Shown piece after piece: positions 44,791 through 64,000 of a stretch of DNA of 64,000 nt. Position numbers and translations under genes: made by a program. The DNA comes from a virus. Under the pieces are notes generated by a model. The model saw only the letters and a program-made list of their open reading frames with translations. It made no database searches and was not told the DNA's origin. The stretch is from positions 1-64,000 of IMG/VR virus record IMGVR_UViG_3300044953_000102; one strand, written 5' to 3'. The stretch's first letter is position 1. Each line of letters opens with the position of its first letter.

Positions 44791-44811
44791 TTTCTAAATT
44801 ATTTTTCGTAT

Positions 44812-44827
44812 ATTATAGTATATTTAT
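44812..44827 (+). promoter_or_regulatory. Late promoter-like element ATTATAGTATATTTAT
   Basis: Core TATAGTATAT recurs at 47558-47574 and 63278-63293, each just upstream of a rightward gene block and after a gap or terminator. It contains TATATTTA, near the TAnnTTTG box. Confidence 0.5.
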
Positions 44828-58288: not shown

Positions 58289-59311
58289 ATGGAAACAACA
58301 GGATTTACAATGGTAGAAGTAGGGGTAGGCAGCATTAAAAAAACATCACTTGCTGTTAGACCTTACTTTGATAAACAAGCAACTAATATGGGGCTTGAAG
58401 AATATGGAATGAGTCTCTTTGATGGAGTAACTCATAATGAGCAACTTGCATGCTTAGAATTAAATGGAGTAATTAGATATATCACAGGTTTAAATGAATT
58501 TGCACCTGAGATTAAATTACTTGACTCAGAAGTAAGAGAAGCAAGAATCAGAGAAATTAGAACTTCAATTGCAGAACTTGAAAAAGAACTTGCTGCAAAT
58601 TTTATTGAAATTGATGATAAAGATTTTTGGAATAAAGTAAAATTACTAAAACCTGATAATAAAGAGTTTTGGAATAAAATTGAGATATCATGTGGTAATG
58701 AACCATTATATTTAGATCCAACTAAACCATTTGATAAAATAAAACTTCATGCAATTGAGGCAGGTGGTTTTCCAATGATAGCAAAAAGTTATGAAGATGC
58801 CAGAGCAAAAGCAGTACCACCTAAGTTTTATCTAGATAAAGAAGAAGAAACTGTAATGGCAAGAACTGAATACAAAAAGATGCGTAACAAAGCACTTTCA
58901 GAACTTCAGAAACTATATGATAAAAACAGTACTAAACTATTCTATGTTGCTAAAGTAGTAGATGCAAATAGTTCTCAGTACAGAAAATCAACTCCACTAG
59001 ATATTATTTATGAGAATATGGATAAATATATTTCTGGAGAAGGAGCTGAGTCAAACAAAGAAAGAGCTTCAAGAACATTCCTTGATGCAGTAAATTTAGA
59101 TATGGAATCATTAAAAATTAAATCAATTGTACGAGATTCCGTATTTTTTAAGTATATTATTAATAAGCCGGATGGATATATTTACCATGCTAAAACAAAT
59201 GCTTTACTTGGTAGAAATGTATCTGATGTAATTGAACACTTAAAAAATCCTTTGAATGAGGATATTTTAAAAGATTTAATTGCATCCTGTGAAAAATATT
59301 GGAACACTTAA
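58289..59311 (+). CDS. Hypothetical virion-block protein of 340 residues
   Basis: Begins METTGFTMVEVGVGSIKKTS. Helical, with two near-repeats DDKDFWNKVKLLKPDN and NKEFWNKIEIS (residues ~112-132). Acidic N-terminal half and a basic C-terminal third. Located directly after the capsid terminator, so it is a probable capsid or internal protein; no family recognised. Confidence 0.75.
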   Translation: METTGFTMVEVGVGSIKKTSLAVRPYFDKQATNMGLEEYGMSLFDGVTHNEQLACLELNGVIRYITGLNEFAPEIKLLDSEVREARIREIRTSIAELEKELAANFIEIDDKDFWNKVKLLKPDNKEFWNKIEISCGNEPLYLDPTKPFDKIKLHAIEAGGFPMIAKSYEDARAKAVPPKFYLDKEEETVMARTEYKKMRNKALSELQKLYDKNSTKLFYVAKVVDANSSQYRKSTPLDIIYENMDKYISGEGAESNKERASRTFLDAVNLDMESLKIKSIVRDSVFFKYIINKPDGYIYHAKTNALLGRNVSDVIEHLKNPLNEDILKDLIASCEKYWNT

Positions 59312-59322
59312 AATTAAATAAC

Positions 59323-59520
59323 ATGAAAGCAAAAATGCCAATGGTAACAAAAGACGGTAAACAAATACCAGCTTTTGCTGCAGATGGAAAAGGTAAAATG
59401 AAAATGGGTGGAGCTAAAAAACCAAAGATGATGGCTGGTGGTGCTAAACCAAAAGCTATGTATGGTACTGCTATGAAACCTAGTATGATGAAAAAAGGTG
59501 GAGCTAAAAAAATGAAATAA
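59323..59520 (+). CDS. Small Lys/Gly/Met-rich basic protein of 65 residues
   Basis: I start at the ATG giving MKAKMPMVTKDGKQIPAFAA; an earlier in-frame ATG overlaps the previous gene. GAKKPKMMAGGAKPKA and KKGGAKKMK show the MKxGG-like motif repeated through this cluster. Extremely basic; likely internal capsid or DNA condensation protein, by composition. Confidence 0.8.
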   Translation: MKAKMPMVTKDGKQIPAFAADGKGKMKMGGAKKPKMMAGGAKPKAMYGTAMKPSMMKKGGAKKMK

Positions 59521-59717
59521 TGGCCACTAAGAAGACAACTAAAAGCAAAGTAAACCAGGCTGGTGTTTATACTAAGCCTGGTATGCGTAAGTCTTTGTTT
59601 GAAAGAATTAAAGCTGGTACAAAGGGAGGAGATCCTGGAGAATGGTCTGCAAGAAAAGCACAACTTTTAGCTAAAGAATATAAGTCTAAGGGTGGTGGTT
59701 ATAAAACTAAGAAGTAA
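59520..59717 (+). CDS. Small basic protein of the KPGxRKxLF...WSARKAQLLA family
   Basis: 65 residues with AGVYTKPGMRKSLFERIKAG and GEWSARKAQLLAKEYK. I recall this motif pair from small proteins of giant viruses and tailed phages, often beside DUF5872. Function unknown. Start shares a base with the previous stop. Confidence 0.8.
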   Translation: MATKKTTKSKVNQAGVYTKPGMRKSLFERIKAGTKGGDPGEWSARKAQLLAKEYKSKGGGYKTKK

Positions 59718-59983
59718 TGGCTAAAGATCCTCAGCAAAGTTTAAGAGATTGGTCAGCACAAAAGTGGATGACATCTGGAACTTATGCAAATAAGAAGAAA
59801 GGTTCTTCTAAAGAGGTAAAGTCAAAAGGTAAAAAAAGGTATTTACCTGAAGCTGCTTGGGGTTCTTTATCAGCAGGAGAAAAAGCAGCTACAAATAAAG
59901 CAAAGGCTAAAGGTAATAGTAAAGGAAAACAATTTGTTAAACAGCCAAAGGGTATAGCCCAAAAAGCAGCAAGATTTAGATAG
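59717..59983 (+). CDS. DUF5872-like small basic protein
   Basis: 88 residues. The N-terminus AQKWMTSGTYANKKK and C-terminal RYLPEAAWGSLSAGEKAAT, GKQFVKQPKG match DUF5872 as I remember it. Strongly basic. Forms part of the basic-protein cluster between capsid and connector genes. Confidence 0.8.
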   Translation: MAKDPQQSLRDWSAQKWMTSGTYANKKKGSSKEVKSKGKKRYLPEAAWGSLSAGEKAATNKAKAKGNSKGKQFVKQPKGIAQKAARFR

Positions 59984-59985
59984 TT

Positions 59986-60225
59986 ATGGCAATTAAAAAA
60001 ACAACAACAAAATCAACACCAGCTAAGAAAAGTTCTTCAGTTGGTATTTCTATTTTTGGTGGTAACAAAGCAGAAATGAGAAAATGGGAAGTTGAATCTG
60101 CTATGTCTACATTACAAAGAGCTTCTGAGATTCAGAAGAATGCAAAGTTAATGGCAGATGTAAAAAAGATGGCAGCTGAGAAAGCAAAAGAATTTAACAG
60201 TATTGCATCTGGTAAAAAGATTTAA
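59986..60225 (+). CDS. Small basic helical protein of 79 residues
   Basis: Poly-Lys/Thr N-terminus (MAIKKTTTKSTPAKKSSSVG) followed by a long amphipathic helix (EMRKWEVESAMSTLQRASEI). The layout recalls histone-like or internal capsid proteins; no family. Confidence 0.75.
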   Translation: MAIKKTTTKSTPAKKSSSVGISIFGGNKAEMRKWEVESAMSTLQRASEIQKNAKLMADVKKMAAEKAKEFNSIASGKKI

Positions 60226-60227
60226 TA

Positions 60228-60572
60228 ATGGCACAGGCAAAAACTAAGAAAGTAAAAGTTACTGCCGGTGGTGAAAAACATGTAGTATATAAGAAGACTA
60301 CAAAAAAAGGAGAAGGAAAGGTTGGTCATATTATGGTCAACCATCCTACTAAAGATAAAGGACAGTGGGATACTATAGATTTAACTGCTAAAGCAAAAGC
60401 AAAAACAGTTAAACAAGGTGTGGCAGCAACTAGAAAATGGCATAAAGAAAATCCTTATCCCAAACAAAAAATGAAGTTGGGTGGAAGTGCAAAGAGTTGT
60501 TGGCCTGGTTATGAAAAAAAAGGTACTAAAAAGATGTATGGTAAAACATATAACAACTGTGTAAAAAAATAG
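60228..60572 (+). CDS. Basic protein with C-terminal CWPGYEKKGTKK motif
   Basis: 114 residues. After a Lys-rich part that contains KVGHIMVNHPTKDKGQWDTI, the end reads KMKLGGSAKSCWPGYEKKGT then KKMYGKTYNNCVKK. The C..GY...GTKK...GKT..NCV tail is widespread at the C-terminus of small phage virion-block proteins and may be a maturation or packing tag. Function unknown. Confidence 0.78.
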   Translation: MAQAKTKKVKVTAGGEKHVVYKKTTKKGEGKVGHIMVNHPTKDKGQWDTIDLTAKAKAKTVKQGVAATRKWHKENPYPKQKMKLGGSAKSCWPGYEKKGTKKMYGKTYNNCVKK

Positions 60573-60574
60573 TC

Positions 60575-60895
60575 ATGGCAAGTAGTAGAGCACAACAAGC
60601 AGCAATAGCTATCTCAATGAAGAAAGCTGGTAAGAAACCTAAGATGAAATCAGGTGGTTCTACTCCTGCTTGGACAAGAAAAGAAGGAAAATCTCCTTCT
60701 GGAGGACTTAATGCTAAAGGTAGAGCTTCTTATAACAAGTCTACTGGTGGTAATCTTAAAGCTCCTCAACCAGAAGGAGGTCCTAGAAAAAAATCATTTT
60801 GTGCTAGATCTGCAGGTCAAATGAAGATGTGGCCTAAAGCAGCTAAGGATCCAAATAGTAGATTACGATTAGCTAGAAAGAAATGGAAGTGTTAA
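60575..60895 (+). CDS. DUF6321-like basic protein
   Basis: 106 residues with AWTRKEGKSPSGGLNAKGRA, LKAPQPEGGPRKKSFCAR and the terminal DPNSRLRLARKKWKC, the features of DUF6321. The tail recurs alone in the 30-residue gene at 61141. Basic; role unknown. Expected inside virions by context. Confidence 0.82.
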   Translation: MASSRAQQAAIAISMKKAGKKPKMKSGGSTPAWTRKEGKSPSGGLNAKGRASYNKSTGGNLKAPQPEGGPRKKSFCARSAGQMKMWPKAAKDPNSRLRLARKKWKC

Positions 60896-60925
60896 AAATA
60901 TTATTAATTAAAAAATAAATGTATA

Positions 60926-61141
60926 ATGAAAAAGTTAGTAAAAAAACAAGTGGGTGGTCCAGTAAGACCTAAAAATGTACAAAGAACAAGCGGTTCACAA
61001 CCTTTAACAGAATATAGTCCAAAGATTAATAGAGGAGGTGGAAATCTTATACCTGTTGGAGCAACTAAACATCCTAAAACAGGAAAACCTTTAAAACCTT
61101 CTATGAAGAAAGGTGGAATTGTAAAAGGTAAGAAAAAATAA
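60926..61141 (+). CDS. Small basic protein of 71 residues
   Basis: Lys/Pro/Gly-rich with KKQVGGPVRPKNVQRTSGSQ and TKHPKTGKPLKPSMKKGGIV. Contains the MKKGG motif typical of the cluster. Its stop shares a base with the next gene's start. Confidence 0.7.
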   Translation: MKKLVKKQVGGPVRPKNVQRTSGSQPLTEYSPKINRGGGNLIPVGATKHPKTGKPLKPSMKKGGIVKGKKK

Positions 61142-61233
61142 TGAAAGGTATGAAAGCTAAACTTACATCTGCTAAGACAGCTAATGATCCTAACTCTAGG
61201 ATCAATAAGTCTTTAAGAAAGTGGAATTGTTAA
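61141..61233 (+). CDS. Minimal 30-residue copy of the DUF6321 tail
   Basis: MKGMKAKLTSAKTANDPNSR then INKSLRKWNC. The DPNSR....RKWxC ending is the same as in the 60575 gene. TAATG coupling to the upstream gene supports real translation. Perhaps a duplicated fragment that keeps only the tail's function. Confidence 0.65.
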   Translation: MKGMKAKLTSAKTANDPNSRINKSLRKWNC

Positions 61234-61250
61234 ACTAAAAATTATAAGAA

Positions 61251-61916
61251 ATGAAAATGTGTGCTAAATGTGGTGGATCTATGAAAAAAGGTGGTGCTAC
61301 AAAAAAGATGGCTAAAGGTGGTGTGCAAAAAATTGTTGGTATGCCTGGATATAATGCAACTCTTTACCCTACATCTTTTAAGAAAGGTGGTGTTAAGAAA
61401 ATGCAGAGTGGTGGAGAAAAACCTGATAAAAGTGTTTTAAAAAATATACTAGGTTTAATTGGTGGAGGATCTGGTATTTTAGCTGGCACAATATTAGGAA
61501 ATAGAGAAAAGGATTCTGAAAAAGCTAATGAAAGAGATAATAAAAGAATCCAAAGAAAAAGTGATAGAAGGGAAAAGAAAGGTTACAAACCAATCTCTAG
61601 ACCATCATTCAAAAATGGTGGTTCTACTTCTTTTGGTATGCTTTCAGTAAAAGCTGGTGTAGATAAAAATCCTAAACCAACTGCTGCTGATAGAATTGCT
61701 GGAGCTAAGATGAAAAAGAAAATGGGTGGTTCAGCAAAACCTTCTGCTGATCTTAGTGCAAAAACTAAATCTAACATTGCTAAAAAAGCTAGTGCTGGAA
61801 AAGACATTGGTAAGAAAGGTAAAGGTTTTGCAAAAGTAGCTGCTGCTGCAGGTGGTGGTGAAAAAGGTAAAAGAATTGCTGCAGCTGCAATGTGGAAAAA
61901 TATTAAAAGAGGATAA
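61251..61916 (+). CDS. Large basic Gly/Lys-rich protein of 221 residues
   Basis: MKMCAKCGGSMKKGGATKKM opens with a CxxC pair and two GG motifs; MQSGG and KMGGS occur later. A hydrophobic piece near residue 65 (NILGLIGGGSGILAGTILG) could be a membrane or glycine-zipper segment. The rest is disordered and basic. Together with its neighbours probably an internal head protein. Confidence 0.75.
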   Translation: MKMCAKCGGSMKKGGATKKMAKGGVQKIVGMPGYNATLYPTSFKKGGVKKMQSGGEKPDKSVLKNILGLIGGGSGILAGTILGNREKDSEKANERDNKRIQRKSDRREKKGYKPISRPSFKNGGSTSFGMLSVKAGVDKNPKPTAADRIAGAKMKKKMGGSAKPSADLSAKTKSNIAKKASAGKDIGKKGKGFAKVAAAAGGGEKGKRIAAAAMWKNIKRG

Positions 61917-62614
61917 TGTTAAATAGTACTATTACCATAAAGATTAAACAAAGACTCAATAAACTTGACAGTCAAGATTATGATAACATAACCTGCTGGC
62001 AAGTTGTTGAGGCTTTTAATAAAGCTCAGGTGGAATGGTCTAGGAGACAGCTACATGGTATTAATGTAGTTAAGGAAGGTGATGAACAATCTACTCGTAG
62101 AAAGGATGACCTTCAAAAACTTTTAATTAAAACACCTTTGACTTCAGTAAAGAAAGATCTTTATTATGAAGGAGATGTTCCTGTAAACTATTTACAATGG
62201 AAACGTGTAGACATCTATGCAAAAAAAGAGTGTTGTGATAAAAGAAGAATGACTGTATATCTTGCAGAAGAAGGGAATCTTAATCAACTTCTGAGAGATA
62301 AATCAAAACAACCAAGTTTTGAATGGGCAGAAACATTTGCAACTTTAATCAACGACACAGTACATCTTTACACAAACAATGAATTTGAAGTAGAGGAAGC
62401 ATACCTAACCTACTACAGACAACCGGTAAAAATACAAATTGATGGATGTTCAGATCCATACACCGGGATTACTTCCACTACAAATGTAGATTGTGAATTT
62501 AAAGATGACATAATAGAATTAATAATTGATGAGGCAGTAAGTATTCTAGCTGGAGACATAGAGTCTGGAAACCAATTCTCTAGAACACAAGAATCTGCTG
62601 AACGTAGTAACTAA
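61916..62614 (+). CDS. Connector-like (head-to-tail adaptor) protein
   Basis: 232 residues. Helical N-terminus (LNKLDSQDYDNITCWQVVEA) that matches the plan of ring/adaptor proteins of crAss-like phages, followed by a beta region with VDIYAKKECCDKRRM and VEEAYLTYYRQPVKIQIDG, and a C-terminal helix (DDIIELIIDEAVSILAGDIE). Placement after the head genes supports a portal-binding ring protein. Tentative. Confidence 0.65.
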   Translation: MLNSTITIKIKQRLNKLDSQDYDNITCWQVVEAFNKAQVEWSRRQLHGINVVKEGDEQSTRRKDDLQKLLIKTPLTSVKKDLYYEGDVPVNYLQWKRVDIYAKKECCDKRRMTVYLAEEGNLNQLLRDKSKQPSFEWAETFATLINDTVHLYTNNEFEVEEAYLTYYRQPVKIQIDGCSDPYTGITSTTNVDCEFKDDIIELIIDEAVSILAGDIESGNQFSRTQESAERSN

Positions 62615-62620
62615 TAAATA

Positions 62621-63238
62621 ATGGAATCAAAACCAAGAACTTTAAAAAGACCAGAAATTGTAAAAGTGCCTCAATCAACTGGCATACCAAATATTGATAA
62701 ACCAAGTACAGGAACATCAAAAGATACTCCTGAATTTAAAACCATGAACCCTCTAATTACAGAGTCATGTGTAGAATATCTTAATTATAGAATTCAACAA
62801 GAAGAATATTCTTCTAGAATCTACATGGCAATGACGATGTGGTTGGATGAAAAAGGATTTAAAGGAGCTGCTGGTCTTTGGAGAAAATATTCAGATGAAG
62901 AACTTACTCATGCTGACATAGCACGTAAGTATCTTTTATCTTTTGGTGTACAACCATTAACTCCAAGATTAGACCAACCTCAACAAGATTTTCCAGGAAG
63001 TCTTCCTGAGATTATTCAGTTATCTTATGAGCATGAGATAGAAGTATCTACTCAAATTAAAAAGATGGCTGATCATGCACTTGGCATGAAAGATCATATG
63101 TTATATGAATTATGTCTTGGTTATCTTAAAGAACAAGTTGAAGAGCATGATAAAATGCAAACATGGGTTGACAAATTAAAAACATTTGGTACAGATCCAT
63201 TAGCTCTTAGATTACTTGATAATGATATGGCCGGATAA
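62621..63238 (+). CDS. Ferritin with complete ferroxidase centre
   Basis: 205 residues: a 40-residue disordered N-terminal extension, then a full four-helix ferritin. Ligands matching E. coli FtnA: Glu61 (EEYSS), Glu94 and His97 (EELTHAD), Glu139 (YEHEIEV), Gln172 and Glu175 (KEQVEEH); the conserved Tyr in YSSRIY is present. Ferritins store iron as a mineral. The gene sits in the virion block, coupled to the connector-like gene, so it may be carried by the particle or protect late replication from iron damage. The extension is unusual and could anchor it to a virion. Confidence 0.9.
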   Translation: MESKPRTLKRPEIVKVPQSTGIPNIDKPSTGTSKDTPEFKTMNPLITESCVEYLNYRIQQEEYSSRIYMAMTMWLDEKGFKGAAGLWRKYSDEELTHADIARKYLLSFGVQPLTPRLDQPQQDFPGSLPEIIQLSYEHEIEVSTQIKKMADHALGMKDHMLYELCLGYLKEQVEEHDKMQTWVDKLKTFGTDPLALRLLDNDMAG

Positions 63239-63277
63239 TTTTTATAATAATTTGGATAATTAAAAACTTTTGACTAT

Positions 63278-63293
63278 ATTATAGTATATATTT
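63278..63293 (+). promoter_or_regulatory. Late promoter-like element before the last virion gene
   Basis: ATTATAGTATATATTT shares the TATAGTATAT core with 44812 and 47558; TTGACT lies 8 bases upstream. About 21 bases before the ATG at 63314. Confidence 0.5.
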
Positions 63294-63313: not shown

Positions 63314-64000
63314 ATGGCTTATTTTGATCATGCGTACAGAAAAGTCCTTTTGGCAACAAATGGAGTTTCTAACCTAACAGGTGTACAATTAGGTACTCCT
63401 ACTGCACCTGGTGCAACAACTACTTACCAGCTTGCTCCTGGTACAATTACATTTATCAACCCTGAAACATTTATTGTTGATGATGCTCCTGCATCTTGTT
63501 GTGATGTAATTCTTGCTGCTGGTTCAATCTATCCTAAAGATAAGATTGGTCCTTTCCACGGAGGTTATCAAGAGTCTAACAAAACTAAGACTATCAAACC
63601 TCAGTATGTAAGCAAGTATTGGTATGTTAATGCTAATGCACCTTCTAACTATATTATCCATGTTGGATATACTCCATGGACAGATGCAAATCCACCTTCA
63701 AGCAGCAACCCTGGTGAAACAGGAGGTACTTGTTGTAAAGAGTTCTTATGTGGTGAGACTTATTATCTACGTTTAGATGTTAAAGGTTCTCCTGCAATGA
63801 GATACTTAAATCACAATGCATATGAGACTCTTGAGGCTTATACAGGATGTTGTGATCCTGCTGCAATTGCACCTACTCCAGTTGATCCACGTAAAGTATA
63901 TCTTGCTTGGGCTAATCAACTTTTAGAGTCTCCAATTGTAAATCCTTTTGCATATCCAGTAGTTACTTTCTCAAATGATGGTGGAGCAACTTGGACATAC
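63314..64000 (+). CDS. Virion protein, 3' end outside window
   Basis: Open from an ATG to the window end (229 residues seen). MAYFDHAYRKVLLATNGVSN, then Cys pairs (ASCCDV, TCCKEFLC, GCCDP) and beta-rich, low-charge sequence. Own promoter-like element and expression-biased codons suggest an abundant structural protein such as a tail or sheath component. Family unknown to me. Confidence 0.8.
   Translation, partial: MAYFDHAYRKVLLATNGVSNLTGVQLGTPTAPGATTTYQLAPGTITFINPETFIVDDAPASCCDVILAAGSIYPKDKIGPFHGGYQESNKTKTIKPQYVSKYWYVNANAPSNYIIHVGYTPWTDANPPSSSNPGETGGTCCKEFLCGETYYLRLDVKGSPAMRYLNHNAYETLEAYTGCCDPAAIAPTPVDPRKVYLAWANQLLESPIVNPFAYPVVTFSNDGGATWTY

Follow-up and report, generated by a model that had tools for sequence, protein, structure and literature searches.

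Why would a crAss-like phage carry a ferritin gene among the genes for its own particle, and what might the encoded protein do there? We examined this question in a 64,000-nucleotide stretch (the window) of the IMG/VR virus record IMGVR_UViG_3300044953_000102, which comprises 114,943 bases in full. A crassvirus capsid protein and a portal are encoded in the window (PF23898 with an E value of 8.2e-30 for the crassvirus major capsid protein), and the gene preceding the ferritin matches two crAss001 ring proteins in the PDB, gp34 (7qoj, E 7.4e-10) and gp35 (E 4.1e-4), so named in the crAss001 virion structure (PMC10172136). Alignment with hhalign gave 95% for gp34 and 94% for gp35, and no match to crAss001 gp40 or gp43. 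With both the PF23898 capsid protein and the gp34 match found, the phage is classed, on sequence, as Crassvirales-like. The features of the locus are as follows.

61916-62614, plus strand: ring protein (tail barrel), a homologue of crAss001 gp34/gp35 by PDB 7qoj and hhalign, ending 6 bases 5' of the ferritin gene.
62621-63238, plus strand: FtnA-type ferritin gene, 205 aa, directly after the ring protein, identified by Pfam PF00210, 3qz3, its ligands and a structural model.
62621-62650, plus strand: N-terminal tag, residues 1-10 (MESKPRTLKR), with a motif that the slot's Dps-like proteins also carry.
62651-62746, plus strand: variable disordered linker, residues 11-42; tag and linker are net positive, and residues 1-35 have pLDDT <50.
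62747-63235, plus strand: ferritin core, residues 43-205, with a dN/dS of about 0.06 among close relatives.
63274-63289, plus strand: CTATATTATAGTATAT, a promoter-like motif that relatives, including ones whose slot is empty, keep 5' of the downstream gene.
63314-64000, plus strand: conserved downstream gene (full length 449 aa, truncated here by the window end), which follows the slot in relatives.

The preliminary description had taken the ORF at 62621-63238 for a complete ferritin with all ferroxidase ligands, and this reading holds. The ORF matches the PF00210 profile with an E value of 1.8e-25 (89.9 bits against a curated cut-off of 24.5), its closest solved structure is the Vibrio cholerae ferritin 3qz3 (E 4.9e-25), and non-haem ferritins are the top matches in both the PDB search and structure alignment. 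Alignment with E. coli FtnA places E17, E50, H53, E94, Q127 and E130 of the latter on E61, E94, H97, E139, Q172 and E175 of the window protein, and the further site residues E49, E126, E129 and Y24 are also kept, as E93, E171, E174 and Y68. All ten of these FtnA-type metal-site positions are invariant among 54 distinct viral ferritins, an invariance that, judged from the alignment, is not a product of chance and that rules out a degenerate, catalytically dead ferritin. AlphaFold, run on the monomer, gives a four-helix bundle with a fifth short helix that superposes on 3qz3 with a Z score of 23.4 (1.6 Å across 160 residues), which together with the kept ligand set predicts ferroxidase competence at the level of sequence and fold. 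Selection on the core among close relatives is strongly purifying, and this dN/dS, combined with the strong homology, excludes a chance or frameshifted ORF. The protein is thus like FtnA (V. cholerae 3qz3, E. coli 1eum) in its fold, its sites A, B and C, Tyr24 and the fifth short helix, but unlike it in its setting within a virion operon, in its membership of a viral clade set apart by a long stem, and in its tagged and disordered N-terminus, a 42-residue tail where an extension of 40 residues had been described.

The placement of the gene had been described as lying between a connector-like gene and a structural gene. The first half of this stands, as the upstream connector is the ring protein homologue; the second was an assumption, since Pfam, PHROGs and PDB searches assigned no function to the downstream gene. 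It does not match the crAss001 auxiliary capsid protein gp36, nor anything else in the PDB. The motif CTATATTATAGTATAT in front of it has a near copy at window positions 44808-44823 and resembles a phage promoter element, although, the window being AT-rich, a single match is no more than chance would give. A run of about eight small Lys/Gly-rich ORFs (KMKKGG-like) separates the capsid region from the ring protein (59299-61916), and their number and sequence differ strongly among relatives.

A survey of gene order in relatives indicates that the ferritin occupies an exchangeable site. Among IMG/VR ferritin relatives the gene mostly lies directly 3' of the ring protein, where 46 distinct ferritins were found, and the random genomic placement that the preliminary description had named as a refuting outcome was not observed. 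Relatives with a major capsid protein (MCP) 89-96% identical to that of the window mostly have no ferritin and instead carry, at the exact position, another gene of about 150-172 aa, a member of DUF5856 (Pfam PF19174; PHROG 858) that we refer to as Dps-like. At 80 connector loci the next gene was Dps-like in 61, a ferritin in eight, absent in ten and truncated in one. Long contigs usually had either a ferritin or a Dps-like gene, rarely both (L011 and L094), and two had neither. On an MCP tree of 84 distinct capsid proteins, at least nine switches between ferritin and Dps-like genes are required, of which six to seven are forced by well-supported branches; shuffled slot labels require about 28 changes. 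Loci L177 and L254 form a clean empty-site pair, in which the flanks match and the entire tagged gene is absent, and such cleanly empty slots in some relatives argue that the cage is an accessory, dispensable for assembly. The slot is therefore an exchangeable site that takes either of two tagged iron cages, a finding new to this study and, like the conserved tag described below, one that the preliminary description had no means of seeing.

The assignment of the alternative occupant draws on its ligands and its predicted fold. In a weak hit (E 0.12), its H48, H60, D75 and E79 align ungapped on H31, H43, D58 and E62 of Bacillus brevis Dps, positions that are the established inter-subunit ferroxidase ligands of Dps. 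The set of four is invariant from the crAss-like phages through T4 rI.-1, LIMEstone1 ORF78 and phiR1-37 g280. Residues 24-150 of the model superpose on Dps with Z scores of 14.9 (MsDps2) and 13.7 (E. coli Dps); as Foldseek alone was weak (E 9e-3) and helical bundles score high in general, the ligand spacing bears much of the assignment. With both a predicted four-helix Dps fold and the inter-subunit ligand set, the occupant is judged to be Dps-like, and DUF5856, whose compared members keep the Dps ligand set, is probably a small family of Dps-like diiron proteins. The occupant of the slot thus belongs with Dps and with the phage DUF5856 proteins (PHROG 858, T4 rI.-1, Sajous1 gp217, LIMEstone1 ORF78). 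The crAss-like copies share the ligand set and the predicted fold with Dps, but differ from other DUF5856 proteins in carrying an R-x-LKR tag and linker and in sharing their slot with a ferritin. T4 rI.-1, which keeps the ligand set, is encoded in the lysis-inhibition region (L302:1965-2348). Three BFVD entries named prohead protease (A0A6J7WPK9, A0A6J7XDU5 and A0A6J7WIS1) were matched by the Dps-like model, a hint that some other phages may have Dps domains joined to head proteases. The Dps and manganese catalase genes of Gratiaviridae are likewise ferritin-superfamily enzymes in Bacteroidetes phages, but they belong to other families, and the available part of their description mentions neither slot exchange nor a common tag (PMC8008677).

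What the two kinds of slot protein have in common is their N-terminus. Ferritins and Dps-like proteins of the slot open with one motif, approximately MxxxR[ML]LKR, followed by linkers that vary in length and sequence. When LKR was required strictly, and among residues 1-18, it was present in 62 of the 65 distinct Dps-like proteins of the slot, in 30 of its 46 ferritins, in none of nine ferritins elsewhere and in 9 of 2238 other ORFs; the sequences are related, so these counts do not represent independent trials. In a set thinned to representatives, a looser form of the tag was found in 26/26 Dps-like proteins and 19/25 ferritins of the slot. Apart from a slot gene cut short where its contig ends, no other ORF in the loci retrieved, virion genes included, had the tag motif. 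The tag's Leu, Lys and Arg residues are encoded by varying codons, so it is the protein motif that is kept, and retention for RNA or codon reasons is not favoured. Constraint is no stronger in the tag than in the linker (dN/dS of 0.30 for the ten tag codons versus 0.18 in close relatives), and within the tag firm conservation is limited to LKR. The tag is also short, and recombination that breaks near the start of the gene, at its 5' end, could account for part of its retention. The N-terminal tails of all slot proteins carry a net positive charge (+1 to +7), averaging +3.4 in ferritins and +2.7 in Dps-like proteins. Both the ferritin and the Dps fold put the N-terminus on the cage exterior, so the tag could reach a partner. 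In lineages with a ferritin after the portal, that ferritin and the adjoining Dps-like protein also open alike, with a different start, M(A)xDINK, which is no more than suggestive.

Ferritins outside the slot also remain close to virion genes, in keeping with the earlier placement of the window ferritin in a virion gene block. All seven viral non-slot ferritins with readable context adjoin, or sit a few genes from, the terminase or portal gene: three upstream of the terminase (L016, L044 and L059) and four just after the portal (L022, L081, L091 and L103), several of them adjoining a DUF5856 gene. In the tree, the viral ferritins form one clade (100/100) on a stem of 2.36 changes per site, which argues that the gene moved within virion modules. 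The ferritin of Maribacter orientalis is the only cellular sequence to join this clade, and a recent pick-up of a host gene is accordingly not favoured. That gene (L186:4998-5507; 45% identity) lies in an ordinary neighbourhood of the chromosome and was the only close cellular ferritin found. The remaining non-slot ferritin, also of the viral clade, lies beside glycosyltransferase-like genes in a Tissierellales MAG; its short contig (L185, JACIXZ010000027.1) is probably phage DNA that was mis-binned.

Whether the cage travels with the particle can be approached through homologues of its alternative occupant in phages that are not crAss-like. Sajous1 gp217, which was retrieved with a Dps-like query, was detected by mass spectrometry in CsCl-purified virions (10 spectra; PMC10892097), and LIMEstone1 ORF78, a DUF5856 member, was identified in virions from three unique peptides at 28% coverage (PMC3296691); the phiR1-37 protein g280 carries the annotation of a phage structural protein. 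Since DUF5856 proteins were found in purified virions of Sajous1 and LIMEstone1, virion association of the cage is plausible by analogy, bearing in mind that ferritin and Dps cages can co-purify in CsCl. The authors of the Sajous1 study named gp217 a ferritin using Phyre2 and proposed a ferrojan-horse entry for Vi01-like phages, in which particle-borne iron engages iron-uptake receptors (PMC10892097). The preliminary description had raised a similar link for the present ferritin, which we consider very improbable: tonB and feoB mutants were infected normally by Vi01-like phages whose virions contain the ferritin-like DUF5856 protein (PMC10892097), ferritin iron is a mineral within a closed cage and not a siderophore complex, and no tail-fibre link to the ferritin was seen at the window locus.

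Position in the virion module, the common tag and the homologues in virions would also agree with a cage that serves the particle chiefly as a structural or scaffold component, its iron chemistry being irrelevant. This appears unlikely, as both core types retain their full set of ferroxidase ligands across wide divergence and some relatives are without any cage. A reading of greater weight, which we regard as possible while leaning against it, has the protein acting off the particle as an auxiliary metabolic gene product that controls free cytosolic iron and peroxide in the infected cell, the tag aiding only folding, DNA binding or translation. It has indeed been proposed that Dps-like proteins and catalases of phages aid host oxygen tolerance (PMC8008677; PMC6669764), the slot is dispensable, and the positively charged tails would suit DNA or RNA binding; set against these points are the placement in the virion module, the occurrence of one tag on two different cores and the detection of the alternative occupant's homologues in purified virions of other phages.

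The explanation that we prefer, and to which we give about an even chance, is that a tagged ferroxidase cage made late in infection reduces the damage that iron does to DNA while particles are assembled and perhaps within them afterwards. In this reading a ferroxidase-competent product would be made late, alongside the head and tail proteins, and its core would take up Fe(II), oxidise it with oxygen or peroxide and store the mineral. Because Fe(II) would be oxidised and stored, less iron would be free for hydroxyl-radical damage to the phage DNA at packaging, and possibly in the finished particle. The core may be either a 24-mer-type ferritin or a 12-mer-type Dps, and its exchangeability suggests that selection acts for an iron-oxidising cage bearing the tag. 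Given the exterior N-terminus of both folds, the R-x-LKR tag would extend outward on a flexible linker and may anchor the cage to a phage-specific partner, either a head component or DNA. Protection from Fenton damage, one of the functions first suggested for this gene, is plausible, and of the functions considered here, protection against iron chemistry is the most economical.

A more specific proposal, which we hold tentatively and judge rather unlikely, is that the short N-terminal peptide docks an interchangeable ferritin or Dps cage to the HK97-type head, as a phage counterpart of encapsulin cargo loading, so that the virion would carry its own iron and peroxide buffer round its DNA. Encapsulin cargo includes ferritin-like proteins and bacterioferritins that are brought into HK97-fold shells by targeting peptides (PMC8346489). 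The slot cages are like these cargo ferritins in belonging to the ferritin superfamily, in their short terminal peptides and in being coded beside a gene for an HK97-fold shell; they are unlike them in that the shell is a phage capsid with DNA, and in that the motif is N-terminal and defined by sequence alone.

The repeated replacement of one cage by another with the tag kept argues that control of iron and peroxide is selected during the assembly of crAss-like phages. The tag, present or removed, on a ferritin or a Dps core offers a compact handle for testing such control. The slot further offers a possible function for DUF5856 (T4 rI.-1, PHROG 858), members of which have been detected in virions although no role for them is agreed, and may link phage heads to the iron compartments of the encapsulin type.
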